This document shows, one piece after another, positions 1,708 to 41,353 of a stretch of DNA of 41,353 nt; within the stretch, counting starts at the first letter, position 1, and every line of letters starts with the position of its first letter. The position numbers and the translations under genes are program-made. The notes below the pieces were generated by a model. That model saw only the letters and a list, made by a program, of their open reading frames with translations. It was not told the origin of the DNA and did no database searches. The DNA is taken from positions 1 to 41,353 of the IMG/VR virus record IMGVR_UViG_3300025818_000041; one strand, 5' to 3'. The stretch comes from a virus.

Positions 1708-1709
1708 TA

Positions 1710-2069
1710 CTATATCTCCTTAACGTATGACGCGTGCAGCGGCTTCCAGCCATGCTTGGTCAAAGGTTTTTTCCATCCGTGGCGACCTGTTATTGTCACT
1801 GCTACACATCCTTGCGCTTTAGACCATGCTATCACATCTTTATGCATATCCATAAGCTGATCTAATTCTCCAGCACCTAGAAACACATTTAGCACCTTTT
1901 TTCTAGGATATACCACAATTTCTGTCACTATGCACCCCTTGGGCGCAGGCCACAACTGCATCTTACCTGACGCAAGCGCTTCAGCTACGTCATCAAAGTT
2001 GTGCGTGCCGCCTGAATACTCCAGCGCGGCCTCTATCCAAGGGCGGCATCTCTCTAGCTCCTTATCCAT
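1710..2069 (-). CDS. GNAT-fold-like virion-associated protein (allele A)
   Basis: 119 aa, starting MDKELERCRPWIEAALEYSG. The order of elements (TEIVVYPRKKVLNVFLG, then WSKAQGCVAVTITGR, then GWKKPLTKHGW) resembles a reduced N-acetyltransferase fold found in small proteins of tailed-phage structural modules. No acetyl-CoA-binding Q/RxxGxG/A loop is obvious, so a structural rather than enzymatic role is likely. The same gene occurs as a second, diverged allele at 38337-38699. Start chosen at 2069, where it overlaps the C1q-like gene by 8 bases. The family assignment is by pattern only. Confidence 0.75.
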   Translation of the reverse strand: MDKELERCRPWIEAALEYSGGTHNFDDVAEALASGKMQLWPAPKGCIVTEIVVYPRKKVLNVFLGAGELDQLMDMHKDVIAWSKAQGCVAVTITGRHGWKKPLTKHGWKPLHASYVKEI

Positions 2070-2721
2070 GAAGCCTCACCATAGATATAGTTGCTGACGG
2101 CGTAGCGGGCGCAAATGCAGTTGCGGCCACTGCTTCCAAATAGCCGCTTATGCTGTTAGTTGCCCACATGACCTCTATGTAATCTCCTGCGGAAAGTTGC
2201 AGTATCGCTGACTTTGTAACGACAAGAGTTGATCCATTTTGGTGCAACGTGTTTTCCATTGCAGATTTGGGAACATCTGTGCCATTAATTCTAACCCAAA
2301 ACCACATCCTAACAGTTGAGGCAGATGTTGAGGCCATTTGCATTGAATATGTCACAGAATATTGCCCAGCCTCGTCAACGACCAAACGCGAAGCTGGCGT
2401 GCCGTTCGTTATTCCTTCAGCCAAATCTTCAGTAAACGTCAGCGCGTATGCCGTATTTATTAATGCCGCCGTCTGATCTGTGCTGATAGTGCCATCGTAA
2501 TGGCCGTCTTCCAGCACAACTTGCCGCCACTCGCCGTTCTTACTGACAACGGGGTATTCGTTTATGCGATCCCACATCAACACGCCGTCTTCTGCCGCGC
2601 TCTCGCCGCCCGTCTGCTGCACAAGCGGTGATCGCGTCTGGCCAAGATACAGCATCATGCGCCGCGCCCATGACTTCCAGTCATCGCCCTGCGGCTCTGG
2701 TGCGCGATACTGCTGCGTCAT
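2062..2721 (-). CDS. C1q/TNF-like jelly-roll tail protein (copy 1)
   Basis: 219 aa. The N-terminal part (MTQQYRAPEPQGDDWKSWA) is helical and likely a connector. From about residue 85 the sequence has the features of C1q-like beta-sandwich domains in marine-phage tail proteins: AGQYSVTYSMQMAS, VRMWFWVRINGTDVPKSA, then LSAGDYIEVMWAT. Such domains form trimers on the virion surface. A 4-base ATGA overlap couples it to the upstream nozzle gene. The last ~35 codons carry the only differences from the copy at 38692-39351 (for example GDYIEV against GDHIEV). The boundary between identical and diverged sequence therefore falls inside this gene. Confidence 0.75.
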   Translation of the reverse strand: MTQQYRAPEPQGDDWKSWARRMMLYLGQTRSPLVQQTGGESAAEDGVLMWDRINEYPVVSKNGEWRQVVLEDGHYDGTISTDQTAALINTAYALTFTEDLAEGITNGTPASRLVVDEAGQYSVTYSMQMASTSASTVRMWFWVRINGTDVPKSAMENTLHQNGSTLVVTKSAILQLSAGDYIEVMWATNSISGYLEAVAATAFAPATPSATISMVRLHG

Positions 2722-4199
2722 CTACGTCCACCCGCAACAGTGTCCAAGCGATTTACTCCAACGCGCCAATCCGACAGCCTTGCGCCGTCAACGCGCATCC
2801 GCACTTGACGCCCCGTGAAGCGCATGCTGGTTGGGTTGGCCATGCTGAACGGGCCATATGATCTCTCAACGCCATTGGGGTAAAAGCGCGTTTTGAACGT
2901 GGCGCTGACGTCGCCCTGCGTCTTCTCGTCGGGGATCATCTCCGTGACACTGATAACTTTATCGCCAGTTCCAAGCATGATTGGGCCTGTCTCTGCAAAT
3001 GGCGATAGGTTGCCATATTCAAAGCCAACCTCATGCTCGTATATTTTCTTATCCGACGGATCTGCCATCATAGGTTGACGGAATGCTCCGCGATCAGCAC
3101 CCGCAGTGCGCGCCAGCGTGCCAATAGACCATGTGTTTTCTACATAGTTATATGTGACGTAACGGTCGTTTTCTGTTGATGCAGCAGACGGGTAGAACCA
3201 CCATATCTCGCCATAGTTGCCGTTCGACATGGCAAACGCCTTACTGATTTGACCACGGTTTATGTCGTTAAACACGTAATCTGACACGTCGCTCTGGATC
3301 TCCTGCACACCGCCGCCAGTGTAGGCGTAGAAGGCATGCACGCCCATCCAGAAGCATCCAGCGTCAACGGTCGCATATGCAAGGTTAGCGGCGAGACCGC
3401 ATGAAGACCCAACGCGCTCAATGCCGTAAACATAGGGCGGGCCAATATAGTTCGCCACATGCGCGTCCGTCGTTGTCAGGATAAGCGTCTGGCCGCGCAC
3501 GTTCATTCCAGCCACAATTTGGCCATTCGTTTCCAACTCAAGATCGCCAGCCTCGTTTGTTGCAGCAGGCGTCCACGTTGTATTGTCTTCGCGGTCAGAC
3601 CACTGCACTTTTCGCGGGTTGCCGCCTGCGCCAAGGCAAAATAGGAAGCGCTCTGCCGTCACAACTATGTTTCTGTTGTTAATTGGCGCGTTGGCAACTT
3701 GCGCGGCAATAGTGCCAGTATTGAGCTGCCACTCGTAAACCTTGCCGTCGTCTTCGTTATTGGCCAGCAAGTATTCACCCCAGCTCTGCAAGTTCCACGA
3801 CGTGGCTGGCTGGATACGAATGGTATCGGGGCGCGCAATGCCGTAGGCATAGTTGCCGTATGTGCTACCGCCGTAGCCAGTAAACGATACCGCGTCTTCA
3901 CGGCCAGCCGTCAGGCCGCTTGGCGTGATGTCGTATTGGGTGCCGGTTTCGCTGTACACGTAGAGCTTGTTGTATGTGCCGGTGCCAATCCAACGATCAT
4001 TGCTGTTGTCGATCCAAGTGTGCATGCCGCGCGGAATAGCATTTGTTGCGGTGCTTGATCTTGTGCGCCAGCCACCAACGGGGCGCATTGTGCCGTCGAT
4101 CCAACGGATCAAACTAGCATCGCGCCAGCGGCCCATGCTCTGCAAGTCGGTGCCGTTGCGGTAAACCCCAGCGGGTACTTCCAAATTTATCAGAGCCAT
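2718..4199 (-). CDS. Tail nozzle / tail-tube protein (copy 1)
   Basis: 493 aa from MALINLEVPAGVYRNGTD. Repeated Trp/Gly/Tyr-rich beta segments (GRWRDASLIRWIDGTMRPVGGW, split here as GRWRDASLIRW and DGTMRPVGGW) suggest a beta-propeller. This is the pattern of the nozzle proteins of podoviruses (T7 gp12, P22 gp10 and SU10 nozzle class), which extend the tail below the adaptor. A longer frame begins 20 codons upstream, but that stretch holds a sigma70-like promoter. ATG at 4199 is preceded by CGAGGCAACG, so I chose it. An identical copy lies at 39348-40829. The function is from general fold features and gene order, not a specific motif. Confidence 0.75.
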   Translation of the reverse strand: MALINLEVPAGVYRNGTDLQSMGRWRDASLIRWIDGTMRPVGGWRTRSSTATNAIPRGMHTWIDNSNDRWIGTGTYNKLYVYSETGTQYDITPSGLTAGREDAVSFTGYGGSTYGNYAYGIARPDTIRIQPATSWNLQSWGEYLLANNEDDGKVYEWQLNTGTIAAQVANAPINNRNIVVTAERFLFCLGAGGNPRKVQWSDREDNTTWTPAATNEAGDLELETNGQIVAGMNVRGQTLILTTTDAHVANYIGPPYVYGIERVGSSCGLAANLAYATVDAGCFWMGVHAFYAYTGGGVQEIQSDVSDYVFNDINRGQISKAFAMSNGNYGEIWWFYPSAASTENDRYVTYNYVENTWSIGTLARTAGADRGAFRQPMMADPSDKKIYEHEVGFEYGNLSPFAETGPIMLGTGDKVISVTEMIPDEKTQGDVSATFKTRFYPNGVERSYGPFSMANPTSMRFTGRQVRMRVDGARLSDWRVGVNRLDTVAGGRR

Positions 4200-4230
4200 C
4201 GTTGCCTCGTTGGTGTTGCGCGCTTGCCGC

Positions 4231-4259
4231 AGTGTAGCACATGACCATTTGATGCGCAA
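4231..4259 (-). promoter_or_regulatory. Sigma70-like promoter for the nozzle gene
   Basis: Read on the minus strand: -35 TTGCGC (4259-4254), a 17-bp spacer and -10 TACACT (4236-4231). It lies 31 bp upstream of the ATG at 4199, just after a hairpin terminator. Repeated at 40861-40889. Confidence 0.5.
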
Positions 4260-4261
4260 AA

Positions 4262-4280
4262 GGGCAGCGTTTTGCTGCCC
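4262..4280 (-). terminator. Hairpin terminator between the DUF6447-like gene and the nozzle gene
   Basis: A perfect 7-bp stem GGGCAGC/GCTGCCC closes a 5-base loop and is followed on the minus strand by TTTTG. The T-tract is short, so termination may be partial, letting the late transcript through. Repeated at 40892-40910. Confidence 0.5.
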
Positions 4281-4305
4281 CTCGCGTTTTTTCTATGCTG
4301 CGCGG

Positions 4306-4512
4306 CTATTCCGCGTCAGGCTCAAGGGCAGCTTTCAGCTCGGCCATGAAGCCCTGCCTGCCCATCTGAAGCTGCACCAAGTTAAACTGCGCAGATCCGA
4401 TCTTCTGGTCTAGCGAATTGATGTGATTTATGCACATCTTTGCAGTGTCGCTCAGTTGATCTTCAGTGTATTCCACATCGTCAATCGTAATGACCTTTTT
4501 TTCTTCAGTCAT
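4306..4512 (-). CDS. DUF6447-like small protein (copy 1)
   Basis: 68 aa. Begins MTEEKKVITIDDVEYTEDQL, with a beta-hairpin (ITIDDVEYTEDQLS) followed by a long amphipathic helix and an acidic end (LEPDAE). The pattern fits the DUF6447 family, common beside phage tail genes and of unknown function. The RBS AAGGAAATC precedes the start. Identical copy at 40936-41142. Confidence 0.7.
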   Translation of the reverse strand: MTEEKKVITIDDVEYTEDQLSDTAKMCINHINSLDQKIGSAQFNLVQLQMGRQGFMAELKAALEPDAE

Positions 4513-4529
4513 ATGATTTCCTTTCTAGG

Positions 4530-4841
4530 TTATGCTGCCCAAGGTGTTCCTGCGGCAGTCGTTGGATTTACCATTGCGTCTATTTTTGACGCTATGGCAG
4601 CTTCGGTATCCTCTTGGGATACATGACCCCACACCCAGCCTTGAGCTTGAGCCTCAGTAATATCGGCATAGGGTGTAAAGTCGGACGCAGAGGCATCGTA
4701 GGTTAAGCCACAAGTGCCATATGAGCTTGCTGTGTTGCCATCATCATCAACGCCTGTGCAGCGCCAATGTGCAATGTAAACGCCACCATCAGCAGTGTGA
4801 CGCTCTAGGGTTGGAATAGTCCAAGTGTAAGTTACAGCCAT
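4530..4841 (-). CDS. Small tail-region protein of unknown function (copy 1)
   Basis: 103 aa. It has beta-strand character (VTYTWTIPTLERH, GGVYIAHWRCTGVDDDG) and ends in TTAAGTPWAA after a helix (SQEDTEAAIASKIDAMVNP). Similar small proteins lie next to fibre genes in many marine phages, and a DUF7936-type assignment is possible. It follows the fibre gene by 12 bases and has its own RBS (GGAGAAAAATT). The right end of the window holds a truncated second copy. Confidence 0.7.
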   Translation of the reverse strand: MAVTYTWTIPTLERHTADGGVYIAHWRCTGVDDDGNTASSYGTCGLTYDASASDFTPYADITEAQAQGWVWGHVSQEDTEAAIASKIDAMVNPTTAAGTPWAA

Positions 4842-12012: not shown

Positions 12013-12522
12013 ATGACTATCAACGAAATTATCAACTACTTAAACGAAATGCCATCATCTGGCTTCGCCGTACACTGCTACGACGAAAACGATGACTTCA
12101 GCGATGACGACGATTGGGTCGACACCGCGTCACCATACACACGCAACGACGGCGGTCGCGCCGCGTCAGGCCGCAAGGGCAGCGCCGGAGATTGCGGCGT
12201 GCGTGCAATGGCCATCGCGCTGGGCCTCGACTACGACGCCTGCTACAAGGAGCTGGCTCAAGCCAACAAAGACGCCGGACGCGCCAAGTCGATGCGCCGT
12301 GGCATTATGAAGTCAGACTTTGACAAAGTGCTGGCGCGCTACGGTTGGGTCTGGCACTCAGCGCCAAAGTTTGACGGGCGCAAGGCGCGCTGCTCAGACA
12401 TGCCAGCAGGCAACGTCATCGCGCGGCAGTCTCGCCACTTCGTCGCCGTCATCGACGGCCAGCCGCATGACACCTTCGACAGCTCCGGCAAGATGGTCTA
12501 CGGCTACTGGCGGTTGCCCTAA
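12013..12522 (+). CDS. Papain-like cysteine protease-fold protein
   Basis: 169 aa, one of only two plus-strand genes. The acidic N-terminus (DENDDFSDDDDW) precedes GSAGDCGVRAMAIALGLDY, with the candidate nucleophile Cys61 at the start of a helix. His142 (RQSRHFVAVIDG) and Asp153 (PHDTFDSS) follow on strands. This Cys-His-Asp order is that of papain/C39/NlpC-type peptidases and related transglutaminases. It could cleave a protein or an isopeptide bond, possibly as a host-takeover factor; that is inference. It has its own promoter and a strong RBS (GGGAGGG, 12002-12008). Its 3' end overlaps the end of terL by 4 bases, convergent. Confidence 0.75.
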   Translation: MTINEIINYLNEMPSSGFAVHCYDENDDFSDDDDWVDTASPYTRNDGGRAASGRKGSAGDCGVRAMAIALGLDYDACYKELAQANKDAGRAKSMRRGIMKSDFDKVLARYGWVWHSAPKFDGRKARCSDMPAGNVIARQSRHFVAVIDGQPHDTFDSSGKMVYGYWRLP

Positions 12523-13919
12523 GCAATCCCCTGCAAATTGCGCCTAAGCGCACCACGCCAACGTGACATCGGCCCGCTCAGGGCCGTTGCCGCGTCTGAC
12601 GCCATCGTCAGGCACACGGCGTCGGCAAGGTCAGGCGAGCGCAGGCCGCGCTTGCGCATGGCGTCCTTGCTCTCGGCAGCCATCTTCCCAGAGGACGTGA
12701 ACGCGTAGCGGATGCCGGTCAGGTCAGCCAGCAGCTCGTCGTCGTTGGGCAGCTTGCAGCTGCGATCCTCCAGCCACGCCTTGCACTTGAACCACAGCTC
12801 CGTGCGCAAGTTGTTATACGTCTCCTTCATCGAGGGAGCCTCGGCGACGTTCACGCCGCGCACGGGGGCGCCAAGCTCGTGCATCCGATCCACGACGCCC
12901 GACCCTATGCCAATGCTGTCCACAAGGATCTCGCTGGGCTGCTGCGACGGGGGCAGCGCATCATATTCAGCCATCACGCGGCCAACGGTCTGCATGAGAT
13001 CAAGCCCGCGCCACGACTTGATCTCCGTAATCACGCTGCCCTCGCGCTTGCAGAACGCGGTGCGGTCGGTGCCAAAGCGCGCAGGATCAATCGCCCACAC
13101 GGCGCGCGTATTCGGCGCAACCTCGATGTCGCGCCGCATCGCGGCCTCGGCCAAGTGGTACGGCACGATCGTGTCATCATCCGCCAGCGGAAACTCGCCA
13201 AGCACGCGGATGCGAAACGCGTTGCTCTCCTCCCCGTAGCGCATGCGCATCTCGTCAACGAACTCGTCGCTGACAAGCGGGCTGTCAACGCACGACCAGC
13301 GGCGCGTCCACCAGCTGCCCGCCATGCGCGTCTGGCTCTCGTAAAACGTGCCAGAGGATCGCGTGGGGTTGCTCAGCAGCACCGTGGTGGCGCTGTGGCC
13401 AGACATGCTGCCCGCAGCAGCCTCGAACACCTTCTCCGGCACACCTGACGCCTCGTCGATGACCAGCAAAACATGCTCGCTATGCACTCCGGCCAGCGCC
13501 TCCGGCGTTTCGGCGCGAGACGTGCGGGCCGAGATGAACGCCTCGGACGCGGCAGCGGTAAGCTCAACGCGATCAGACTTCACCGTGACCATGTCCTTCA
13601 GATTAGGCGGCAGCTCGTTGATCCACCGCTTCATCTCCGCGAACAGCGCGTCAAAGAGCTGGCCAGATGTGGGCGCGGTGACGACAACCTTATTCGGAAA
13701 ACGCAGAAACAGGAACCACAGCATCGCCCAGCTGGCAGACGTTGACTTGCCGGTGCCATGCCCAGAGCGCACGCTGATCTTGCGCTCGCCGGACGCAATC
13801 GCAGAGAGGAACTCGGCCTGATATGGCAGCGGGGATGCGCCAAGCACCTCGCGCACAAAGCGCACGGGGTCGTCGTAATACTCGACAACGAAGTCGTCAA
13901 ACGGGTTGGCGTCACTCAT
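12519..13919 (-). CDS. terL: Terminase large subunit
   Basis: 466 aa from MSDANPFDDFVVEYYDDPVR. ATPase domain with Walker A GHGTGKST (residues 53-60) and Walker B VLLVIDEASG (about 150-159), then motif III-like TTVLLSNPTRSSG. RNase H-like nuclease domain begins at WAIDPARFGTDRTAF (Asp278), followed by EILVDSIGIGSG and DLADAVCLTMASD, the expected acidic residues. It packages DNA into the prohead through the portal. A longer frame starts 9 codons upstream, but ATG at 13919 overlaps the terS stop by 8 bases and gives the normal N-terminus. Confidence 0.97.
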   Translation of the reverse strand: MSDANPFDDFVVEYYDDPVRFVREVLGASPLPYQAEFLSAIASGERKISVRSGHGTGKSTSASWAMLWFLFLRFPNKVVVTAPTSGQLFDALFAEMKRWINELPPNLKDMVTVKSDRVELTAAASEAFISARTSRAETPEALAGVHSEHVLLVIDEASGVPEKVFEAAAGSMSGHSATTVLLSNPTRSSGTFYESQTRMAGSWWTRRWSCVDSPLVSDEFVDEMRMRYGEESNAFRIRVLGEFPLADDDTIVPYHLAEAAMRRDIEVAPNTRAVWAIDPARFGTDRTAFCKREGSVITEIKSWRGLDLMQTVGRVMAEYDALPPSQQPSEILVDSIGIGSGVVDRMHELGAPVRGVNVAEAPSMKETYNNLRTELWFKCKAWLEDRSCKLPNDDELLADLTGIRYAFTSSGKMAAESKDAMRKRGLRSPDLADAVCLTMASDAATALSGPMSRWRGALRRNLQGIA

Positions 13920-14403
13920 CCGACACCTCCACATATTCCGCGTCAATCGTGGCGGCCTCGGCCTCGCTGTTCACGCGCTTCATGTCGGCGCTGAACTTGC
14001 GCAGCGCATCCAAGTGCAGGTCGCCAATGGAAAGCGTGACATTGCTCTGCGGGCGCGTGCCGTAGCGCTCCTGATTCATCGAGCCAGCCATGAACTTGCG
14101 CCACTGCACCTTCTCGCGCGTGGCAGCGATCTCCGTCGGGCTGCTGGCGCCGCTCAACCCGTCAACCATCTCCAAGCCCTGCTCCACCAGCGCATCCGCA
14201 GCCTCGCCGCGAGCCTTGCTCAGCGCAGCCGCATACTCAGGCACGCTGTTCAGTGACCTGCTAACATAGCTGCGCGTGCAGCCGTATTGGCGTGCCAGCT
14301 CGGCGACGGTGACGCCGGACGCGATCTGGTCAAAGAGCCAATCTGCGCCGCCGTTGGAGGCGACCTCCGTCAATATGCGCTTGCGTAACGCCTTGCCTGC
14401 CAT
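13912..14403 (-). CDS. terS: Terminase small subunit
   Basis: 163 aa. Residues ~28-50 (SGVTVAELARQYGCTRSYVS) form a helix-turn-helix that would bind the packaging site. The central helices (LSKARGEAADALVEQGLEMV) suit ring assembly, and the acidic C-terminus (AEYVEVSDE) is where small subunits meet TerL. Immediately upstream of terL and overlapping it. RBS AAGGAGAAACATC. The 14481-14518 palindrome upstream is a candidate packaging or regulatory site. Confidence 0.88.
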   Translation of the reverse strand: MAGKALRKRILTEVASNGGADWLFDQIASGVTVAELARQYGCTRSYVSRSLNSVPEYAAALSKARGEAADALVEQGLEMVDGLSGASSPTEIAATREKVQWRKFMAGSMNQERYGTRPQSNVTLSIGDLHLDALRKFSADMKRVNSEAEAATIDAEYVEVSDE

Positions 14404-21464: not shown

Positions 21465-21556
21465 CACATCCACCCCATGCTGACGGCGCCGATCCAGCCC
21501 AGCACCGACGCGGCAATCGCTGCGGCGATGATGATGTCTTGCGTCCACTTAGTCAT
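21464..21556 (-). CDS. Tiny membrane protein (30 aa)
   Basis: MTKWTQDIIIAAAIAASVLG followed by WIGAVSMGWM. A single hydrophobic segment flanked by an N-terminal polar turn. Start overlaps the upstream stop (ATGA) and stop overlaps the next start (TGATG), exactly as in the surrounding coupled genes, so this short frame is likely translated. Role unknown. Confidence 0.55.
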   Translation of the reverse strand: MTKWTQDIIIAAAIAASVLGWIGAVSMGWM

Positions 21557-22257
21557 GCTGCTTTCCATTCTACAAATAAATCACGCACCAGCTTCTTTGT
21601 CATGTATCTCAATGCACGATTGTGCGCGTGGCCATCGCTATCTACACGCTCGCGCTCAAGCGTTTTGCGCGTGTCATATATCCTGCGATACGGGCCAGCG
21701 TTTTCTTCTTTTCCTTGGCTCTTGAGCAGGCTGTCGCCGATCGTCCAGAATACCGAATGACGTGACGGGCTATATCCATGCGCCAATGCCATCTCCGCAT
21801 TGCTGCATTTGCGCTGCCTCTGGCCATCTATCACGGCAAGCCCAGCGCGCTTATATATGCCGTCAAGCTCCTTTTCGTATTCCATAAAGTCGCCTACCTC
21901 GCCAACAATGCCCGCCAAGCCCAGATGGCCAAAGCCTTTCACCTTATCGACAAACGTTGATACTGGCAGCTCCTTTGCCAGCCCCACAAGCCACTTCTCA
22001 AACTCGGCACGGCTTTCTAAGAGCGGCTGCCTTGCCTCAAATAGTGGCTTTGTGGCGGCGTATTCATCCATTGTGCCTTCGCCCCTCTTCAGTTGGGCGA
22101 ATAGCTTATTGGCTTCCTTGATGTCGCCGTCACGAAAGCTGCGGCAGATTGCTTTAATCTGCAACACCAGCTTTGCTTCAGCGCGAACCATGTTCTGCCT
22201 ATTGCGCCAAGTCAGATATATCTTGGCAATGGTTGGGTCTTCGTAACGTTTATCCAT
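21553..22257 (-). CDS. IS110/Nop-like RNA-binding protein associated with the hairpin array (stand-alone Tas-like)
   Basis: 234 aa from MDKRYEDPTIAKIYLTWRNR. N-terminal ~100 residues are long helices suited to a coiled-coil domain (ICRSFRDGDIKEANKLFAQL; EFEKWLVGLAKELP). Residues 104-150 (DKVKGFGHLGLAGIVGEVGD, then FMEYEKELDGIYKRAGLAVI) match the Transposase_20 pattern of IS110 transposases, in which a helix-hairpin-helix precedes 'GLAGIxGExGD' and 'KRxGL'; this region is akin to the Nop fold. Residues 161-231 (GYSPSRHSVFWTIGDSLLK, GPYRRIYDTRK, GHAHNRALRYMTKKLVRDLF) are basic and fit RNA binding. There is no DEDD/RuvC, HNH or serine-recombinase-like catalytic part, so it should bind rather than cut unless a partner acts. 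ATG at 22257 has an excellent RBS (AAGGAG, 7 bases). The frame stays open 143 codons upstream, but that stretch is the array. A degenerate IS110 remnant is the alternative. Confidence 0.75.
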   Translation of the reverse strand: MDKRYEDPTIAKIYLTWRNRQNMVRAEAKLVLQIKAICRSFRDGDIKEANKLFAQLKRGEGTMDEYAATKPLFEARQPLLESRAEFEKWLVGLAKELPVSTFVDKVKGFGHLGLAGIVGEVGDFMEYEKELDGIYKRAGLAVIDGQRQRKCSNAEMALAHGYSPSRHSVFWTIGDSLLKSQGKEENAGPYRRIYDTRKTLERERVDSDGHAHNRALRYMTKKLVRDLFVEWKAA

Positions 22258-22279
22258 AATGGATCTCCTTGTTTTATGC

Positions 22280-22719
22280 GAGGCGGAGGCAAAATGACTT
22301 TTCTGCGTAGCTTGAGTGGCCTCTGGTTGTTGGTGCGCCAGTTCTATGGCATCTCTGCGGGTTCTGATCGGCACCAAATAAAGTGGGAGCGCGGGCTTCT
22401 TGGCATTTCTGCGTAGAAAATTTGGCTCCCTGTTGTAAGGCGGGGGTGCATGATCGGTGGCATTTCTGCATGCTTTAGATGACCCCCTGTTGAATGGTTG
22501 GGAAGGGTGACGGCTAATCGGCATTGCTGCATGGTCAGTATGACCCTTCCCATTGGCGCGCTCAGTATTCGGCATAATGCGATGATCGAGTGGCACCAAA
22601 ATAAGGTGGGGGCGTGGATTGCATGGCATTGCTGCGAAAACCCAATGACCCCCTGTTGTAAGGCGGGGGCGTCGCATCGTTGGCATTTCTGCGTTGGTTG
22701 ACCGACCCCCTGTTAAACA
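22280..22719 (-). ncRNA. Eight-unit hairpin array resembling a TIGR guide-RNA array
   Basis: Begins 9 bases after the stop of the 177 aa gene and ends 22 bases before the Tas-like start, so it is co-transcribed on the minus strand. Units: 22665-22710, 22608-22653, 22553-22599, 22500-22551, 22442-22487, 22385-22430, 22330-22377, 22280-22323. All eight read: 5' edge arm ending YC, 11 variable bases, loop, 9 variable bases, then NCR and the 3' edge arm. The loop is GCAGAAATGCC (units 1, 5, 6), GCAGCAATGCC (2, 4), GCAGAGATGCC (7), GCATTATGCC (3, one base short) and GCAGAAAAGTC (8, degenerate). GCA/TGC encloses GAAA, GCAA or GAGA, all GNRA tetraloops. Edge arms pair perfectly (GGGGG/CCCCC; GGGAAGGGT/ACCCTTCCC; GGGAGC/GCTCCC; TTGGTGC/GCACCAA) with compensatory changes. 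YC plus 11, 11 and 9 bases plus NCR is 36 bases, the tigRNA length as I recall it. Function as guides is inferred. Confidence 0.8.
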
Positions 22720-23253
22720 TTATTCTACCAAAGCCTGCTCATACTCAGCTTTGACTTCGCTGATATTCCAAACATCTCTGACGACTTTATCATCAGTGAC
22801 GCGGGCCTTGATGGCAGAATAGAAGCTGCGCTGCCCCTCATGGTGCTTGCTGCGGGATGTCTCGTGCATAATCGCCTGCTCAAGATCCTCGCTTGTTGCA
22901 TCGCCCAAGCAGATGCCGGTATTGGGCAATAGCCAACGCTCAAACATATCCTTTGCATATGCGGGTGCCATGTTTTTCAGTGACACGGCTGGCGTTGATG
23001 TCTCGCCCTTGCTCAGCACAGTTTGATGCGCTGCACGCTTAAGTCGCGCGCGGTAGCCTCTGGGCTGCGCAACAACATCCAAATATGCAATGCGCTCCAA
23101 GTGGCGGCGTGTAGCCTCTTCGCGCAAAACATCGTCTTGCTGAAGCATAACCAGATATTTCTCCGATGCTTCCTTCGCGCTAGCAGATCCCTCCCAAGCC
23201 TTTTCTACGGCCTCGGACACAATCGAAATAATATTTTCTTGCTTAGTCATCAC
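22720..23253 (-). CDS. Protein of unknown function upstream of the hairpin array (177 aa)
   Basis: Helical N-terminus (IVSEAVEKAWEGSASAKEAS, EKYLVMLQQDDVLREEATRR), basic stretch GYRARLKRAAHQTVLSKGET, then DMFERWLLPNTGICLGDATS and HETSRSKHHEGQRSFYSAIK. No family recognised and no nuclease motif visible. It ends 9 bases before the array, so array transcripts pass through it; a partnership with the array is possible but only positional. Confidence 0.6.
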   Translation of the reverse strand: MMTKQENIISIVSEAVEKAWEGSASAKEASEKYLVMLQQDDVLREEATRRHLERIAYLDVVAQPRGYRARLKRAAHQTVLSKGETSTPAVSLKNMAPAYAKDMFERWLLPNTGICLGDATSEDLEQAIMHETSRSKHHEGQRSFYSAIKARVTDDKVVRDVWNISEVKAEYEQALVE

Positions 23254-29913: not shown

Positions 29914-30248
29914 TTTGCTAAAAGTCCTTGCATTGCTCCATTCATTGCGCTTCGGTGCATGGCACGCTCTGCACCAGCGCCAAAGTTTCCGCGCTCAAAT
30001 CTAGGAAACTTTTTACCAGTGGCTTTTTCGTAATCTAAAGACAACATTCTTGCCGTTTCGACCGGAACTTTAACTGCCTCACCATTTGGCTTGAACCAAA
30101 TGGTCGGGAAGTTAAACGGAACGCCATCCTCATCTGCCTCTGTCGATATATGCTCAGTTGAAAGCCCACCAAGCCCTAAATCTTGGGGCTTGTGCTTTTC
30201 TGGATCAAATGGCTCAAGGCCAAATGTCTTGCTCAGTAGTCCTGTCAT
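29910..30248 (-). CDS. Head-module protein of unknown function (112 aa)
   Basis: Basic/Gly N-terminus (LGLGGLSTEHIST), core PFNFPTIWFKPNGEAVKVPV, then YEKATGKKFPRFERGNFGAG. The 'FPTIWF...G...P...A...YE..TGK.FP' pattern recurs in small proteins of podovirus head modules and in internal proteins. Overlaps portal by 4 bases. Confidence 0.65.
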   Translation of the reverse strand: MTGLLSKTFGLEPFDPEKHKPQDLGLGGLSTEHISTEADEDGVPFNFPTIWFKPNGEAVKVPVETARMLSLDYEKATGKKFPRFERGNFGAGAERAMHRSAMNGAMQGLLAK

Positions 30249-32335
30249 TGTTGCACCCCTTGAGCCATGCCGCCGATCATGCGCATTTTATCCTGTTCCG
30301 CTTTTACACGCGCTACATCTACGGCAGTGCCGTATTGGCCATATATCTTGGCAGCATCAACCATGAGATCCTGCGCCATCTGATCGCGCTTCAAGTCGTC
30401 ATCTGCGGCTGCTTTCTGCGCCTCAAGCTGCAGCTTCATCATGTCAGTCTGCGCTTTGCTTTGCGCCTTGATCTGCTCGGCCTGCAGGAATGCGGCGTTT
30501 GGATCTTGCGCCTGCCCCTGCTGCGCCATCATGGCCTGCTGTTGCTGTTGCAACTGTAGCATCTGCATTTCTATTTCCGGCGTAATCGGCGCGAAGTAGC
30601 GGTCGGCATTGCGCACGCCTGACAACGCCAGACTGTCGGCCAGCGTGTTGCGGATGTTGGTCAGCGATACCAAGCCGTTCATCGGGCCATATTGCTGGTA
30701 AACCATCTGCTGCATCTGCAACGCCTGCTGCAACGCCATCTGCTTCTCTTCTTCGCGGCCAGTGCCAAGCCCGACGTTGATGCTGATGTCCATCGACGTA
30801 TCCCAGACACGCGGATCAACTGGCACAAACTGCCCGTTCATCCGCATCATCTTCTGCTCGTCCATATTCTTATTCATCAGGCGCAGCATGATGCCAAACA
30901 GGTCGCGCAGGCCGTCGGCCAAGTTGCGCACCATCACCTCTGTCTGGCCCGCAGCGGCCTGCACAGACGCCTGAACGGCTGCCTTAGTGGTAGACTGTAA
31001 AGCGTCAGGATTAAGCCCCACAGAGGCGCTTGTGACGCCCGTCTTCTGCTCTGTGAGCTGATCCATGTATGCCAGCGCAGATAGCGTCTGGCCAGCAACA
31101 AACGGCACGCTGAGATCCTGCACAGATCCTGCTTGGCGCATCCGCACAAGTGACCCGATCTCGTTGTTCAGCACGTCGTCAATATTTACTGCGCCGTCTA
31201 CGATACCAATGCGCGGATTGTTGGTCATCGCCACGTTATCCAAGATGCCACGCAGAATAGACGTTGCCGCATCTTGGTCATTTTCTACCAGCTCAGACAG
31301 GCTGTGTCCGTACCAGCTGTGTGGCTCTGGGTCGATCTCAAACTTGGCAAACGGGATCTCGTCGCACGGCATGAAGTCTAGCAGCTCGTATGACGTGCCG
31401 CCGCAGAGAAACTTGTACAGCACCGGCACGCCGGTTCCGTCCACATCCATACGCATGTAGGCTTCTGTAATTCCCACCAGCTTCATGGACGGGTCTAGCT
31501 CGTCTTCGTCTGACAAGTCTTCCTCGTATCCTTGGCGCTCAAGCACCTCTGCGCCAGACATATCGTTTGTGCCGTCTATTGGCGTCAGGTTAGACACGAC
31601 GTCAAAATCAAAGCCCATCTCGACCAGATCGCCGACGCGCATATCTGTGCGGTGCGCCACGACATATGCGTCATCGAATGACCGGCAGTCGCGGTTGACG
31701 AAGAACTCTTCCGGCGGGATGCTTTCTATACGCAGCTCGCCCTTCATCTCTGTGCGGCTAATCTTGACCGAATGGACAGGAAGCTCGATGTCCATGCCCA
31801 TCTCGTCCACCTCAATCGACATTTCCATCGTATGCTCGATCACGTCCACGTTATCTTCTTGGATCAGAAACGTGTATTCATCATCAGACAGGTCGGTGTA
31901 GGTGTATATTTCGGCCACGGGGTAGTCGTGCCAATACGCCTTCACGATGCCCTGCTTCTTCACCATGGCGTCTTGAAACGCGTCGTTTAGCACGCGGTAG
32001 CCGTTTAGACGCGTAAACTCATGCTGGATGTAGCTGGTGGCCTGCTCGGCCAGCGCAACGTCTTCTGGCCCCTTCGGGATAAACTCTACCGGCCTTGCGG
32101 TGGACATGAAGATCCGCATCAGGCTTGGCTTCACAGAGCGTACGGTATCCCGTACCTTTGTGGCCACAACCTTGCTGCGCCCGTCTTCGTGGCCAATATC
32201 AACCTCGCCGTCATAATAACGCTGCGCCTTGATGCGGTCTTCGCTAATCTCGCTCTCAACGAAATCAACGGCCTCGCTGATCGCATTTTGAACAATGCTT
32301 TCTATCTCGCGGCGATCTTTTGGCTGTGGTTGCAT
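30245..32335 (-). CDS. Portal protein
   Basis: 696 aa, in the P22/SU10-like size range. Starts MQPQPKDRREIESIVQNAIS; then YYDGEVDIGHEDGRSKVVAT, KVRDTVRSVKPSLMRIFMST (the wing/clip pattern of large portals), IPPEEFFVNRDCRSFDDAYV, HSWYGHSLSELVENDQDAAT and MTNNPRIGIVDGAVN. The C-terminal 150 residues are Gln/Ala-rich helical barrel (MQLQQQQQAMMAQQGQAQD-like). Forms the dodecameric DNA channel with TerL and the adaptor. Confidence 0.93.
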   Translation of the reverse strand: MQPQPKDRREIESIVQNAISEAVDFVESEISEDRIKAQRYYDGEVDIGHEDGRSKVVATKVRDTVRSVKPSLMRIFMSTARPVEFIPKGPEDVALAEQATSYIQHEFTRLNGYRVLNDAFQDAMVKKQGIVKAYWHDYPVAEIYTYTDLSDDEYTFLIQEDNVDVIEHTMEMSIEVDEMGMDIELPVHSVKISRTEMKGELRIESIPPEEFFVNRDCRSFDDAYVVAHRTDMRVGDLVEMGFDFDVVSNLTPIDGTNDMSGAEVLERQGYEEDLSDEDELDPSMKLVGITEAYMRMDVDGTGVPVLYKFLCGGTSYELLDFMPCDEIPFAKFEIDPEPHSWYGHSLSELVENDQDAATSILRGILDNVAMTNNPRIGIVDGAVNIDDVLNNEIGSLVRMRQAGSVQDLSVPFVAGQTLSALAYMDQLTEQKTGVTSASVGLNPDALQSTTKAAVQASVQAAAGQTEVMVRNLADGLRDLFGIMLRLMNKNMDEQKMMRMNGQFVPVDPRVWDTSMDISINVGLGTGREEEKQMALQQALQMQQMVYQQYGPMNGLVSLTNIRNTLADSLALSGVRNADRYFAPITPEIEMQMLQLQQQQQAMMAQQGQAQDPNAAFLQAEQIKAQSKAQTDMMKLQLEAQKAAADDDLKRDQMAQDLMVDAAKIYGQYGTAVDVARVKAEQDKMRMIGGMAQGVQQ

Positions 32336-36795: not shown

Positions 36796-38337
36796 TCATT
36801 TGCCACCGCCTCCACCGCGCCTAGCGGGCTTTGATGGAGGGGCGATTGTGGCCCTTCCAGTGGTAGGCGCAAAAGAAATCGGTTCATTTCTAAAACTATC
36901 ATCTCTTTGCGGCACAATAATTGGCGCTGGCAAGTCTGGATCCACAAACCCAGCCGCGCCGCCTGCAAACATCGGGTCGCCAACACTTACCGCTGGCCCT
37001 AATATACTTTCCATTATTGCGTTTACATCACTAGAGCCAGTGTCGGCAGGCGACGGTGGGGTCGCCGGTGCCTCTTCGACTATGTTGTACTTGCTTGCCG
37101 TGTCTGCGCCAAACATTGTACTTATGTCTCCGGCTTGGTTCCCGCTTTGCTGCAAGTTGCCAGCAGCGTCAAATAACTGATACGATGAAGTTCCATCACC
37201 TAAAGGCGTGTATCTTATAGTTTTCTTATTTGGGTCTATTGCTGGTGCGGAGGGCGCTGCTTGGCCAATACCAAGCGCCTCCTCTAAAGCGCCGATTGCG
37301 GCACCAGTTATGCCGCCACCCATAATAAAGTTGCCAACATCAGACAGCAGCCCGCCGCCCTCGAATGGGCCGCCAGCCGCATTAGGGCCGCCGCCGTCAA
37401 TCATATCTATAAAGCCTGTGTATTCTTGTGGCTCTAAGCCCAATATTGCCTGCTCGCCTGCAGCAAGTGGCCTTCCCTCTATCGGCGTGTAGCCAATTTC
37501 ATCTATCGCTGCGCTAATTGCGGGGTCTAATGTGTAGTCGCTGGGAACTGTTGGCGGCAAAAATGCATCAACACCCGCAGCATCAATAATCTCCGGCGTT
37601 ATGCCAAATCCAGTTGATTGCCCTGTCGGGTCTTGCGCTGCCTGCGCGGCTTGGTATTCGTAAACTGTTTGGAAAGCCTCATTATAATCAGGGTTTGTGG
37701 GATCAGTTGCCATTATTTGCTGAGCAATCTGAACCTCTGGCGGCGCGATATTAAATATTTGGTCGTTTGGCTGCACAGCCAAGTTTGGGTTAGCCGCAAA
37801 GCTTGTTGTCTCATATGTAACATTTTGCGGCCCCGCAGCCGCCTGCGCCTGCGCGATCGCAAGCTCGTTTGCGCGATCTGCTGCGCGGATGTCTGCCATC
37901 GTACCCATAGTGCTGTAATCAACAGCAGGCTGCACACGCGTTCCGGCTTGGCCTGTCACGGGATCAATGAAAAAGCTCTCAATGTATTGCGCCTGCGCTG
38001 GGCGCTGCGCGGCAAGCTCGTCAACGGCCTGCTGGTACAATGGAGCTGCGCTATATCCGCGTACACCGCCAGCAAACTGCGTTGGCTCTGGCATGCCGCC
38101 CATAATATCAGCTTGCGTTGTTGGCGTTCCCAACCCAAACGCAGACGCAACGTCAGCGGTTTGCTGGAAGCCAGCCTGCTGGAACGGCGTAAACGCGGCA
38201 ACATCCGGCCCGAAATATGGCACATAGCCAATCTGGCTGATGCCTTCGGCCTTTGCCAAGTTACGGCGCGCTGCTTCTTCAATGTATTCTGGAATCTCGA
38301 CGCTTGTCGATGTTGACCCGCCCTTGCCGCCTGACAT
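36796..38337 (-). CDS. Virion protein, short allele (513 aa)
   Basis: N-terminus (MSGGKGGSTSTSVEIPEYIE) followed by EAARRNLAKAEGISQIGYVP, then FGPDVAAFTPFQQAGFQQTA and YQQAVDELAAQRPAQAQYIE. The middle contains Pro/Ala-rich segments. It ends in a Gly-rich tail (PARRGGGGGK). Homologous and collinear with 1-1707 for the first ~130 residues; beyond that they diverge, and this allele lacks the Cys-box domain. Function unknown; position fits tail/ejection. Confidence 0.8.
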   Translation of the reverse strand: MSGGKGGSTSTSVEIPEYIEEAARRNLAKAEGISQIGYVPYFGPDVAAFTPFQQAGFQQTADVASAFGLGTPTTQADIMGGMPEPTQFAGGVRGYSAAPLYQQAVDELAAQRPAQAQYIESFFIDPVTGQAGTRVQPAVDYSTMGTMADIRAADRANELAIAQAQAAAGPQNVTYETTSFAANPNLAVQPNDQIFNIAPPEVQIAQQIMATDPTNPDYNEAFQTVYEYQAAQAAQDPTGQSTGFGITPEIIDAAGVDAFLPPTVPSDYTLDPAISAAIDEIGYTPIEGRPLAAGEQAILGLEPQEYTGFIDMIDGGGPNAAGGPFEGGGLLSDVGNFIMGGGITGAAIGALEEALGIGQAAPSAPAIDPNKKTIRYTPLGDGTSSYQLFDAAGNLQQSGNQAGDISTMFGADTASKYNIVEEAPATPPSPADTGSSDVNAIMESILGPAVSVGDPMFAGGAAGFVDPDLPAPIIVPQRDDSFRNEPISFAPTTGRATIAPPSKPARRGGGGGK

Positions 38338-38699
38338 TATTCAAACTCCTTCACATATGAGGCGTGCAGTGGCACCCAGCCATGCGCCTTCAGTGGTTTC
38401 TTCCAGCCAAACCGGCCCGTCATGGTCAACGCAGAGCATCCTTGCGCTTTTGCCCATGCTATCACATCTTCATGCATTTCTAAAATCTGATCCAACTCGC
38501 CGCCGCCAAGAAACACGTTTAAAACTTTCTTTCTCGGATATACCACTATTTCGGTGACTATGCACCCCCTCGGCGTAGGCCAGAGCTGCATCGTTCCCTT
38601 GTATATACCCTCGGCCACGTCGATGAAGTCATGCGTGCCGCCGGAATACTCCAAAGCGGCCTCAATCCATCCACGGCATCTCTCAAGCTCTTTATCCAT
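38337..38699 (-). CDS. GNAT-fold-like virion-associated protein (allele B)
   Basis: 120 aa from MDKELERCRGWIEAALEYSG. Same elements as the 119 aa allele at 1710-2069 (TEIVVYPRKKVLNVFLGGGE, WAKAQGCSALTMTGRFGWKK) with many substitutions. Longer frames upstream are rejected because ATG 38699 matches the allele exactly at the 36,630-base offset. Stop overlaps the next start (TAATG). Confidence 0.75.
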   Translation of the reverse strand: MDKELERCRGWIEAALEYSGGTHDFIDVAEGIYKGTMQLWPTPRGCIVTEIVVYPRKKVLNVFLGGGELDQILEMHEDVIAWAKAQGCSALTMTGRFGWKKPLKAHGWVPLHASYVKEFE

Positions 38700-39351
38700 G
38701 AAGCCTCGCCATAGATATAGTTGCTGACGGCGTAGCGGGCGCAAATGCAGTTGCGGCCACTGCCTCTAAGTACCCGCTTGTACTGTCGGTAGCCCACATG
38801 ACCTCTATGTGATCTCCTGCGGAAAGTTGCAGTATCGCTGACTTTGTAACGACAAGAGTTGATCCATTTTGGTGCAACGTGTTTTCCATTGCAGATTTGG
38901 GAACATCTGTGCCATTAATTCTAACCCAAAACCACATCCTAACAGTTGAGGCAGATGTTGAGGCCATTTGCATTGAATATGTCACAGAATATTGCCCAGC
39001 CTCGTCAACGACCAAACGCGAAGCTGGCGTGCCGTTCGTTATTCCTTCAGCCAAATCTTCAGTAAACGTCAGCGCGTATGCCGTATTTATTAATGCCGCC
39101 GTCTGATCTGTGCTGATAGTGCCATCGTAATGGCCGTCTTCCAGCACAACTTGCCGCCACTCGCCGTTCTTACTGACAACGGGGTATTCGTTTATGCGAT
39201 CCCACATCAACACGCCGTCTTCTGCCGCGCTCTCGCCGCCCGTCTGCTGCACAAGCGGTGATCGCGTCTGGCCAAGATACAGCATCATGCGCCGCGCCCA
39301 TGACTTCCAGTCATCGCCCTGCGGCTCTGGTGCGCGATACTGCTGCGTCAT
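38692..39351 (-). CDS. C1q/TNF-like jelly-roll tail protein (copy 2)
   Basis: 219 aa, same as 2062-2721 except near the C-terminus (GDHIEVMWATDSTSGY here). Identity with copy 1 is complete upstream of codon ~180 and breaks near 38811. See copy 1 for domain description. Confidence 0.75.
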   Translation of the reverse strand: MTQQYRAPEPQGDDWKSWARRMMLYLGQTRSPLVQQTGGESAAEDGVLMWDRINEYPVVSKNGEWRQVVLEDGHYDGTISTDQTAALINTAYALTFTEDLAEGITNGTPASRLVVDEAGQYSVTYSMQMASTSASTVRMWFWVRINGTDVPKSAMENTLHQNGSTLVVTKSAILQLSAGDHIEVMWATDSTSGYLEAVAATAFAPATPSATISMARLHG

Positions 39352-40829
39352 CTACGTCCACCCGCAACAGTGTCCAAGCGATTTACTCCAACGCGCCAAT
39401 CCGACAGCCTTGCGCCGTCAACGCGCATCCGCACTTGACGCCCCGTGAAGCGCATGCTGGTTGGGTTGGCCATGCTGAACGGGCCATATGATCTCTCAAC
39501 GCCATTGGGGTAAAAGCGCGTTTTGAACGTGGCGCTGACGTCGCCCTGCGTCTTCTCGTCGGGGATCATCTCCGTGACACTGATAACTTTATCGCCAGTT
39601 CCAAGCATGATTGGGCCTGTCTCTGCAAATGGCGATAGGTTGCCATATTCAAAGCCAACCTCATGCTCGTATATTTTCTTATCCGACGGATCTGCCATCA
39701 TAGGTTGACGGAATGCTCCGCGATCAGCACCCGCAGTGCGCGCCAGCGTGCCAATAGACCATGTGTTTTCTACATAGTTATATGTGACGTAACGGTCGTT
39801 TTCTGTTGATGCAGCAGACGGGTAGAACCACCATATCTCGCCATAGTTGCCGTTCGACATGGCAAACGCCTTACTGATTTGACCACGGTTTATGTCGTTA
39901 AACACGTAATCTGACACGTCGCTCTGGATCTCCTGCACACCGCCGCCAGTGTAGGCGTAGAAGGCATGCACGCCCATCCAGAAGCATCCAGCGTCAACGG
40001 TCGCATATGCAAGGTTAGCGGCGAGACCGCATGAAGACCCAACGCGCTCAATGCCGTAAACATAGGGCGGGCCAATATAGTTCGCCACATGCGCGTCCGT
40101 CGTTGTCAGGATAAGCGTCTGGCCGCGCACGTTCATTCCAGCCACAATTTGGCCATTCGTTTCCAACTCAAGATCGCCAGCCTCGTTTGTTGCAGCAGGC
40201 GTCCACGTTGTATTGTCTTCGCGGTCAGACCACTGCACTTTTCGCGGGTTGCCGCCTGCGCCAAGGCAAAATAGGAAGCGCTCTGCCGTCACAACTATGT
40301 TTCTGTTGTTAATTGGCGCGTTGGCAACTTGCGCGGCAATAGTGCCAGTATTGAGCTGCCACTCGTAAACCTTGCCGTCGTCTTCGTTATTGGCCAGCAA
40401 GTATTCACCCCAGCTCTGCAAGTTCCACGACGTGGCTGGCTGGATACGAATGGTATCGGGGCGCGCAATGCCGTAGGCATAGTTGCCGTATGTGCTACCG
40501 CCGTAGCCAGTAAACGATACCGCGTCTTCACGGCCAGCCGTCAGGCCGCTTGGCGTGATGTCGTATTGGGTGCCGGTTTCGCTGTACACGTAGAGCTTGT
40601 TGTATGTGCCGGTGCCAATCCAACGATCATTGCTGTTGTCGATCCAAGTGTGCATGCCGCGCGGAATAGCATTTGTTGCGGTGCTTGATCTTGTGCGCCA
40701 GCCACCAACGGGGCGCATTGTGCCGTCGATCCAACGGATCAAACTAGCATCGCGCCAGCGGCCCATGCTCTGCAAGTCGGTGCCGTTGCGGTAAACCCCA
40801 GCGGGTACTTCCAAATTTATCAGAGCCAT
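39348..40829 (-). CDS. Tail nozzle / tail-tube protein (copy 2)
   Basis: 493 aa, identical to 2718-4199, with the same start choice, RBS, upstream promoter (40861-40889) and hairpin (40892-40910). Represents the same gene seen again because the window wraps. Confidence 0.75.
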   Translation of the reverse strand: MALINLEVPAGVYRNGTDLQSMGRWRDASLIRWIDGTMRPVGGWRTRSSTATNAIPRGMHTWIDNSNDRWIGTGTYNKLYVYSETGTQYDITPSGLTAGREDAVSFTGYGGSTYGNYAYGIARPDTIRIQPATSWNLQSWGEYLLANNEDDGKVYEWQLNTGTIAAQVANAPINNRNIVVTAERFLFCLGAGGNPRKVQWSDREDNTTWTPAATNEAGDLELETNGQIVAGMNVRGQTLILTTTDAHVANYIGPPYVYGIERVGSSCGLAANLAYATVDAGCFWMGVHAFYAYTGGGVQEIQSDVSDYVFNDINRGQISKAFAMSNGNYGEIWWFYPSAASTENDRYVTYNYVENTWSIGTLARTAGADRGAFRQPMMADPSDKKIYEHEVGFEYGNLSPFAETGPIMLGTGDKVISVTEMIPDEKTQGDVSATFKTRFYPNGVERSYGPFSMANPTSMRFTGRQVRMRVDGARLSDWRVGVNRLDTVAGGRR

Positions 40830-40935
40830 CGTTGCCTCGTTGGTGTTGCGCGCTTGCCGCAGTGTAGCACATGACCATTTGATGCGCAAAAGGGCAGCGT
40901 TTTGCTGCCCCTCGCGTTTTTTCTATGCTGCGCGG

Positions 40936-41142
40936 CTATTCCGCGTCAGGCTCAAGGGCAGCTTTCAGCTCGGCCATGAAGCCCTGCCTGCCCATCTGAA
41001 GCTGCACCAAGTTAAACTGCGCAGATCCGATCTTCTGGTCTAGCGAATTGATGTGATTTATGCACATCTTTGCAGTGTCGCTCAGTTGATCTTCAGTGTA
41101 TTCCACATCGTCAATCGTAATGACCTTTTTTTCTTCAGTCAT
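40936..41142 (-). CDS. DUF6447-like small protein (copy 2)
   Basis: 68 aa, identical to 4306-4512. Same gene seen again through wrap-around. Confidence 0.7.
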   Translation of the reverse strand: MTEEKKVITIDDVEYTEDQLSDTAKMCINHINSLDQKIGSAQFNLVQLQMGRQGFMAELKAALEPDAE

Positions 41143-41159
41143 ATGATTTCCTTTCTAGG

Positions 41160-41353
41160 TTATGCTGCCCAAGGTGTTCCTGCGGCAGTCGTTGGATTTA
41201 CCATTGCGTCTATTTTTGACGCTATGGCAGCTTCGGTATCCTCTTGGGATACATGACCCCACACCCAGCCTTGAGCTTGAGCCTCAGTAATATCGGCATA
41301 GGGTGTAAAGTCGGACGCAGAGGCATCGTAGGTTAAGCCACAAGTGCCATATG
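41160..41353 (-). CDS. Small tail-region protein (copy 2, truncated by the window end)
   Basis: Corresponds to 4530-4841. The stop is at 41160; the first ~39 codons lie beyond the window. No sign of decay, only truncation by the end. Confidence 0.7.
   Translation of the reverse strand, partial: YGTCGLTYDASASDFTPYADITEAQAQGWVWGHVSQEDTEAAIASKIDAMVNPTTAAGTPWAA

Follow-up and report, generated by a model that had tools for sequence, protein, structure and literature searches.

A probable stem-loop TIGR-TasA locus with a constant partner gene and fast-changing spacers in a marine phage

Stem-loop tandem interspaced guide RNA (TIGR) arrays have been described with the nuclease-less protein TasA, including one on a Peromyscus gut contig, and their box C–box D pairing covaries (Faure et al. 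2025, PMC12045711). That paper names the targets of TIGR-TasA, the way arrays change and the role of a nuclease-less Tas protein as open questions. The locus analyzed here lies in IMG/VR virus record IMGVR_UViG_3300025818_000041, of which positions 1 to 41,353 were analyzed (41,353 nucleotides; the window). It comprises tasA, eight stem-loop units and a small partner gene (Table 1). An initial annotation had proposed a stand-alone Nop protein, a TasA-like effector, directly behind a guide array. The reading frame does adjoin a genuine array, and the proposal is supported by sequence matches, fold and array anatomy. On this basis the TasA identity of the protein is near certain, and the locus is very probably a TIGR-TasA locus of the stem-loop-array type, guide binding by TasA included.

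The core of the locus is a further member of the known TIGR-TasA systems. Like the stem-loop TIGR-TasA described in PMC12045711, it has a solo nuclease-less Nop protein and stem-loop units in tandem. In both, each unit carries two short spacers flanked by box C and box D, and variable palindromic stems stand where edge repeats would be. It differs from the system as described there in having a constant loop element (YGCAG-N-AATG-YCA), stems in a fixed order and a conserved small gene preceding the array. It stands out as a distinct variant through a second gene that is always present and through guides that change rapidly within an unchanging scaffold. TasR (PDB 9mty) and TasH (PDB 21kl and 9vzx) share the coiled coil and Nop fold, whereas the window TasA lacks an N-terminal RuvC or HNH and is accompanied by a stem-loop array instead of dual repeats. 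TasA with TasParB (PMC12045711, fig. S14 according to its Methods) is likewise a tasA linked to a second gene, but TasParB is described with ParB domains and dual-repeat arrays, and the window partner matches no ParB model. IS110/IS621 RNA-guided recombinases have a similar C-terminal Nop-like RNA-binding fold (Z about 14); in contrast, the window TasA has no DEDD domain and an array replaces the single bridge RNA. Transposon ends were not seen at the window locus, although no search was made for them. Box C/D small nucleolar ribonucleoproteins share the Nop fold, in Nop5 and Prp31, and the box C/D logic. Their fold match is weak, however, no methyltransferase or L7 protein accompanies TasA, and TasA is phage-encoded.

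The TasA product is basic (isoelectric point 9.4). Its gene starts at the ATG at 22257, with a Shine-Dalgarno-like AAGGAG just 5′. The frame remains open across the array up to an ATG at 22686; this extension is the array translated as protein, and the frames of most relatives stop short of such length. The motifs KGFGHLGLAGIVGEVGD and KRAGLAV and the basic C-terminal segment GHAHNRALRYMTKKLVRDLF, singled out in the initial annotation, are all present. The NCBIfam model TIGR_Tas_endo (NF052498) matches with E=6.4e-22 and 78.6 bits; its name refers to an endonuclease, which the window protein is not. A profile built from 15 relatives matched TasR (9mty) at E=1.2e-15 and TasH at E=0.005 among PDB sequences, and a DGHAHNRA motif is common to the window TasA and TasR. 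The annotated likeness to Transposase_20 is real but weak by sequence, with no Pfam match, Transposase_20 included, and an NCBIfam IS110 match of E=3e-4.

The structure was modeled with AlphaFold2 from an alignment of 30 diverse relatives (predicted local distance difference test score, pLDDT, 91.8; predicted template modeling score 0.85), superseding a poor model from a shallow alignment (pLDDT 62.5). Only TasR and TasH were found below E=0.001 when the model was used in a Foldseek search. As the initial annotation had advised, the model was compared with Nop5/Prp31, Tas and IS110 proteins, and its fold is of the Nop type. VIA-align gave the highest Z to TasR (17.4; root-mean-square deviation 2.3 over 190 residues) and TasH (16.3), followed by IS110-type recombinases (13.6–14.3). 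The modeled likeness to Prp31 and Nop5 (Z about 8) is only consistent with such a fold, since unrelated helical proteins reach the same level. The 234 residues superpose solely on TasR 106–296. The RuvC of TasR, which precedes residue 106, has no counterpart in the window protein, which identifies the latter as TasA. RuvC, HNH and other nuclease families were absent by Pfam, NCBIfam and comparison of the model, as was an N-terminal DEDD domain of the IS110 transposase type, in agreement with the initial annotation.

Dozens of phage contigs encode TasA proteins 33–100% identical to the window TasA, and all loci compared here belong to one TasA clade. The initial annotation had regarded homologues that never lie beside arrays as evidence to the contrary; stem-loop units adjoin tasA in the inspected loci down to 33% identity, with a few weakly parsed cases. 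Relatives include the cultured Rhizobium phage RHph_X2_25 and a prophage in Rhizobium esperanzae. Rhizobial units follow the same plan with a shorter loop, CG-AAAA-CCA.

Each unit consists of a stem, box C, 9-nt spacer A, a central box D/loop/box C, 9-nt spacer B, box D and the closing stem. Box C is CCA or TCA and box D is CG or CA, and the unit consensus is YCR for the first box C, YG-CAG..AATG-YC for the middle and C(G/A) for the last box. Pairing was assessed in 275 distinct units of relatives, picked by the loop motif alone without a stem criterion, and shuffled 3′ arms served as the control. Stem positions 1–5 are paired in 95, 96, 99, 95 and 80% of units, against 93, 72, 85, 67 and 48% in the control; position 1 is nearly constant and so uninformative for covariation. 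The box C–box D pair forms in 93% of units against 80% when shuffled, and alternates between C-G, T-A and T-G. Two alternating invariant repeats, edge and loop, as in dual-repeat arrays were not found, as the edges differ from unit to unit with compensation. The sole Rfam match was a sub-threshold box C/D snoRNA located outside the array, and scans for sigma-70 promoters and terminators gave no excess over shuffled sequence.

Wherever the sequence reaches far enough, in 68 of 68 distinct TasA loci, the partner family lies upstream of the array and tasA; 16 further contigs end too early to judge. In the reverse direction, TasA was present in 14 of 14 viral loci retrieved with the partner as query. 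Marine and Rhizobium partners matched weakly when compared as a pair of profiles alone (probability 25%), and larger held-out profiles settled their kinship. A profile without marine sequences detects the window partner at E=6.5e-15, and one built without the Rhizobium copy detects that copy at E=3.9e-10. Searches of Pfam, NCBIfam and PDB returned nothing for the partner protein, and none of its PHROG matches was significant; ParB families of Pfam and NCBIfam are among those without a match. The main text of PMC12045711 reports TasA without clear protein associations, except for tasParB, found with dual-repeat arrays, and the partner gene is undescribed in the sense of being absent from that main text. 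It encodes a second protein to include in any biochemical reconstitution. Small chromosomal alphaproteobacterial proteins (L302–L307; frames of about 130–200 aa) resemble the N-terminal half of the partner with E about 1e-6 to 1e-9. TasA is absent from the fetched stretches around them, and two of these proteins gave no significant Pfam match.

Spacers vary far more than their surroundings, as expected for guides under turnover. Among the 18 loci closest to the window, DNA identity is 96.5% for tasA, 95.9% for the partner gene and 86–98% for the loop elements, and the order of stem types is kept. Spacers at matched positions are just 32–65% identical; positions were counted from tasA, and because array length varies between loci, identity is lowered at distal positions. 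The 18 loci carry 16 distinct arrays, with two pairs of loci each sharing one array. Every array position varies, so there is no sign of CRISPR-like one-ended acquisition. Close variants of single guides also exist, with 75 transitions and 40 transversions, and both spacer replacement and point change seem to act. Variants noticed by eye at one array position, which looked synonymous with respect to a single coding target, had suggested a codon signature in spacers; in a test across 45 guide families, neither a three-base periodicity nor a favored phase emerged (p about 0.66), and the idea was dropped. We give even odds to a reading in which phage stem-loop TIGR-TasA systems comprise two proteins, TasA working together with the undescribed partner, and in which spacers are replaced at a high rate across the whole array while the scaffold stays fixed, a natural reprogramming of guides without CRISPR-like adaptation genes. 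This marine phage group makes array turnover measurable, since its natural arrays, dozens of them, differ in spacers but have a single TasA and scaffold in common.

By analogy with published TasR and TasA work, the array transcript would mature into individual stem-loop guide RNAs, whose two 9-nt spacers each lie between a box C and a box D. One guide would be bound by a TasA dimer via the Nop domains. A DNA site of roughly 18 bp would be unwound and bent, with one spacer of the guide paired to each strand. Lacking a nuclease, TasA would bind without cutting and may remain on the site as an RNA-programmed clamp, preventing its transcription or replication. The sites bound would most likely lie on the DNA of the host or of competing mobile elements. 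The initial annotation had put forward silencing of rival-phage or host genes, or recruitment of another nuclease, as possible roles. The small upstream protein may be an obligate partner that serves in processing, in the loading of guides or in an effector step. The simplest outcome would be that rival or host DNA is blocked from transcription or replication, with an effector step supplied by the partner as its main rival; silencing as the result of TasA binding is given about an even chance.

Targets were sought as spacer A followed by the reverse complement of spacer B, a pattern derived in this analysis from the 8-nt 3′ overhangs that cleavage leaves according to PMC12045711. Several results weigh against the TIGR-TasA reading. 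When sites for 246 guides were sought in 1.86 Mb of DNA from related phages (gaps 0–2), there was no excess over wrong-geometry controls, nor was there in a smaller run on related phages. Three guides had 0, 2 and 0 exact matches in IMG/VR, which is the chance level. Two rhizobial guides gave chance matches only in Rhizobium genomes. The prophage guide has one site with two mismatches and one with three in its own host, fewer than the count of the reversed-pattern control, and the second (N at the junction, gap 1 only) has four scattered one-mismatch matches in 148 genomes. The NF052498 score of 78.6 bits is under the curated NCBI cutoff of 100 bits, as is the 95.0 bits of one relative (L077). 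Single units folded alone are just modestly stabler than shuffles, and the argument for the array therefore rests on covariation. In favor of the reading, guides of the window have no self-target with fewer than four mismatches outside the array in the window phage.

The TasA-guide complex could instead be a targeting half only, with the partner, or a host or phage enzyme recruited by it, damaging or modifying the target. We hold this to be a real though clearly lesser possibility than silencing: the mutual constancy of partner and TasA (68 of 68 and 14 of 14 loci) speaks for it, while the partner has no recognizable nuclease or methylase domain, matches nothing in Pfam, NCBIfam or PDB, and resembles in its N-terminal half small uncharacterized alphaproteobacterial proteins. 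It is unlikely that RNA-guided DNA bending by TasA aids phage recombination or integration rather than silencing, a role raised as a possibility in PMC12045711, where TasR is reported to bend target DNA by about 180 degrees. Genes for an exonuclease VIII-like protein and a Holliday junction resolvase lie near tasA in the window phage, and its relatives include temperate Rhizobium elements. Yet no integrase was seen among the larger window-phage proteins in a scan that was not exhaustive, and a fixed attachment site is hard to reconcile with eight different guides whose spacers are hypervariable. The initial annotation had called the phage lytic, a description that was not borne out, the Rhizobium relatives being one prophage and one phage with a repressor gene.

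Regulation of RNA rather than DNA by the array RNAs, in the manner of box C/D guides, is suggested by the Nop-domain proteins of box C/D particles, which act on RNA, and by the fold similarity to Prp31 and Nop5 at Z about 8. No fibrillarin-like or L7-type protein was seen, however, DNA is what Tas relatives bind, and PMC12045711 reports that TasR leaves RNA uncut; we rate an RNA target as quite improbable. The least probable reading, with hardly any weight left to it, is a decayed IS110 transposase fragment beside a chance cluster of hairpins. PHROG labels the TasA family "transposase" (E=1.6e-14), and similarity to IS110 extends to sequence (E=3e-4) and fold (Z about 14 to IS110-type recombinases). 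Tas proteins match better in both respects, however, and the protein is conserved at full length in dozens of phages that keep arrays and partner gene throughout. The fragment was rejected because the array is conserved and covaries and because the Tas scores are higher.

Table 1. Features of the TIGR-TasA locus in the window.
Feature	Position	Strand	Description
tasA	21553..22257	-	Solo Nop-domain protein, 234 aa; N-terminal coiled coil and C-terminal Nop RNA-binding part
tasA leader	22258..22277	-	AAGGAG ribosome-binding-site-like sequence; basis, sequence
TIGR array, stem-loop type	22278..22711	-	8 units, directly upstream of tasA; basis, covariation and match to the published stem-loop arrays
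Unit 1 (first in transcript)	22664..22711	-	Spacers GTCAACCAA / ACGATGCGA
Unit 2	22607..22654	-	Spacers TTGGGTTTT / TGCAATCCA
Unit 3	22553..22599	-	Spacers CTCGATCAT / AATACTGAG; loop element 9 nt
Unit 4	22502..22549	-	Spacers TACTGACCA / ATTAGCCGT
Unit 5	22441..22488	-	Spacers TCTAAAGCA / CCGATCATG
Unit 6	22384..22431	-	Spacers AATTTTCTA / AGAAGCCCG
Unit 7	22330..22377	-	Spacers ATCAGAACC / TAGAACTGG
Unit 8 (adjoins tasA)	22278..22325	-	Spacers CTCAAGCTA / TTTTGCCTC
Partner gene	22720..23253	-	Conserved, 176–177 aa, no known domain; directly upstream of the array, same strand

Rhizobium phage RHph_X2_25 (L001; MW960032.1, 24663–25718) encodes a TasA relative flanked by stem-loop arrays on both sides and, with its host known, offers a culturable model. 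Judged by the terminase and portal genes of the window (12519–13946 and 30245–32335, both on the minus strand), the phage falls close to podovirus-like phages of Octadecabacter and Sinorhizobium. A terminase search returned at least 599 matching stretches, and the window phage thus belongs to an abundant marine group. The ends of the record (1560–4723 and 38190–41353) repeat each other over 3.2 kb with 95.7% identity. Such a repeat may stem from a duplication, or from a circular genome (about 36.6 kb) that was closed by two strain variants.
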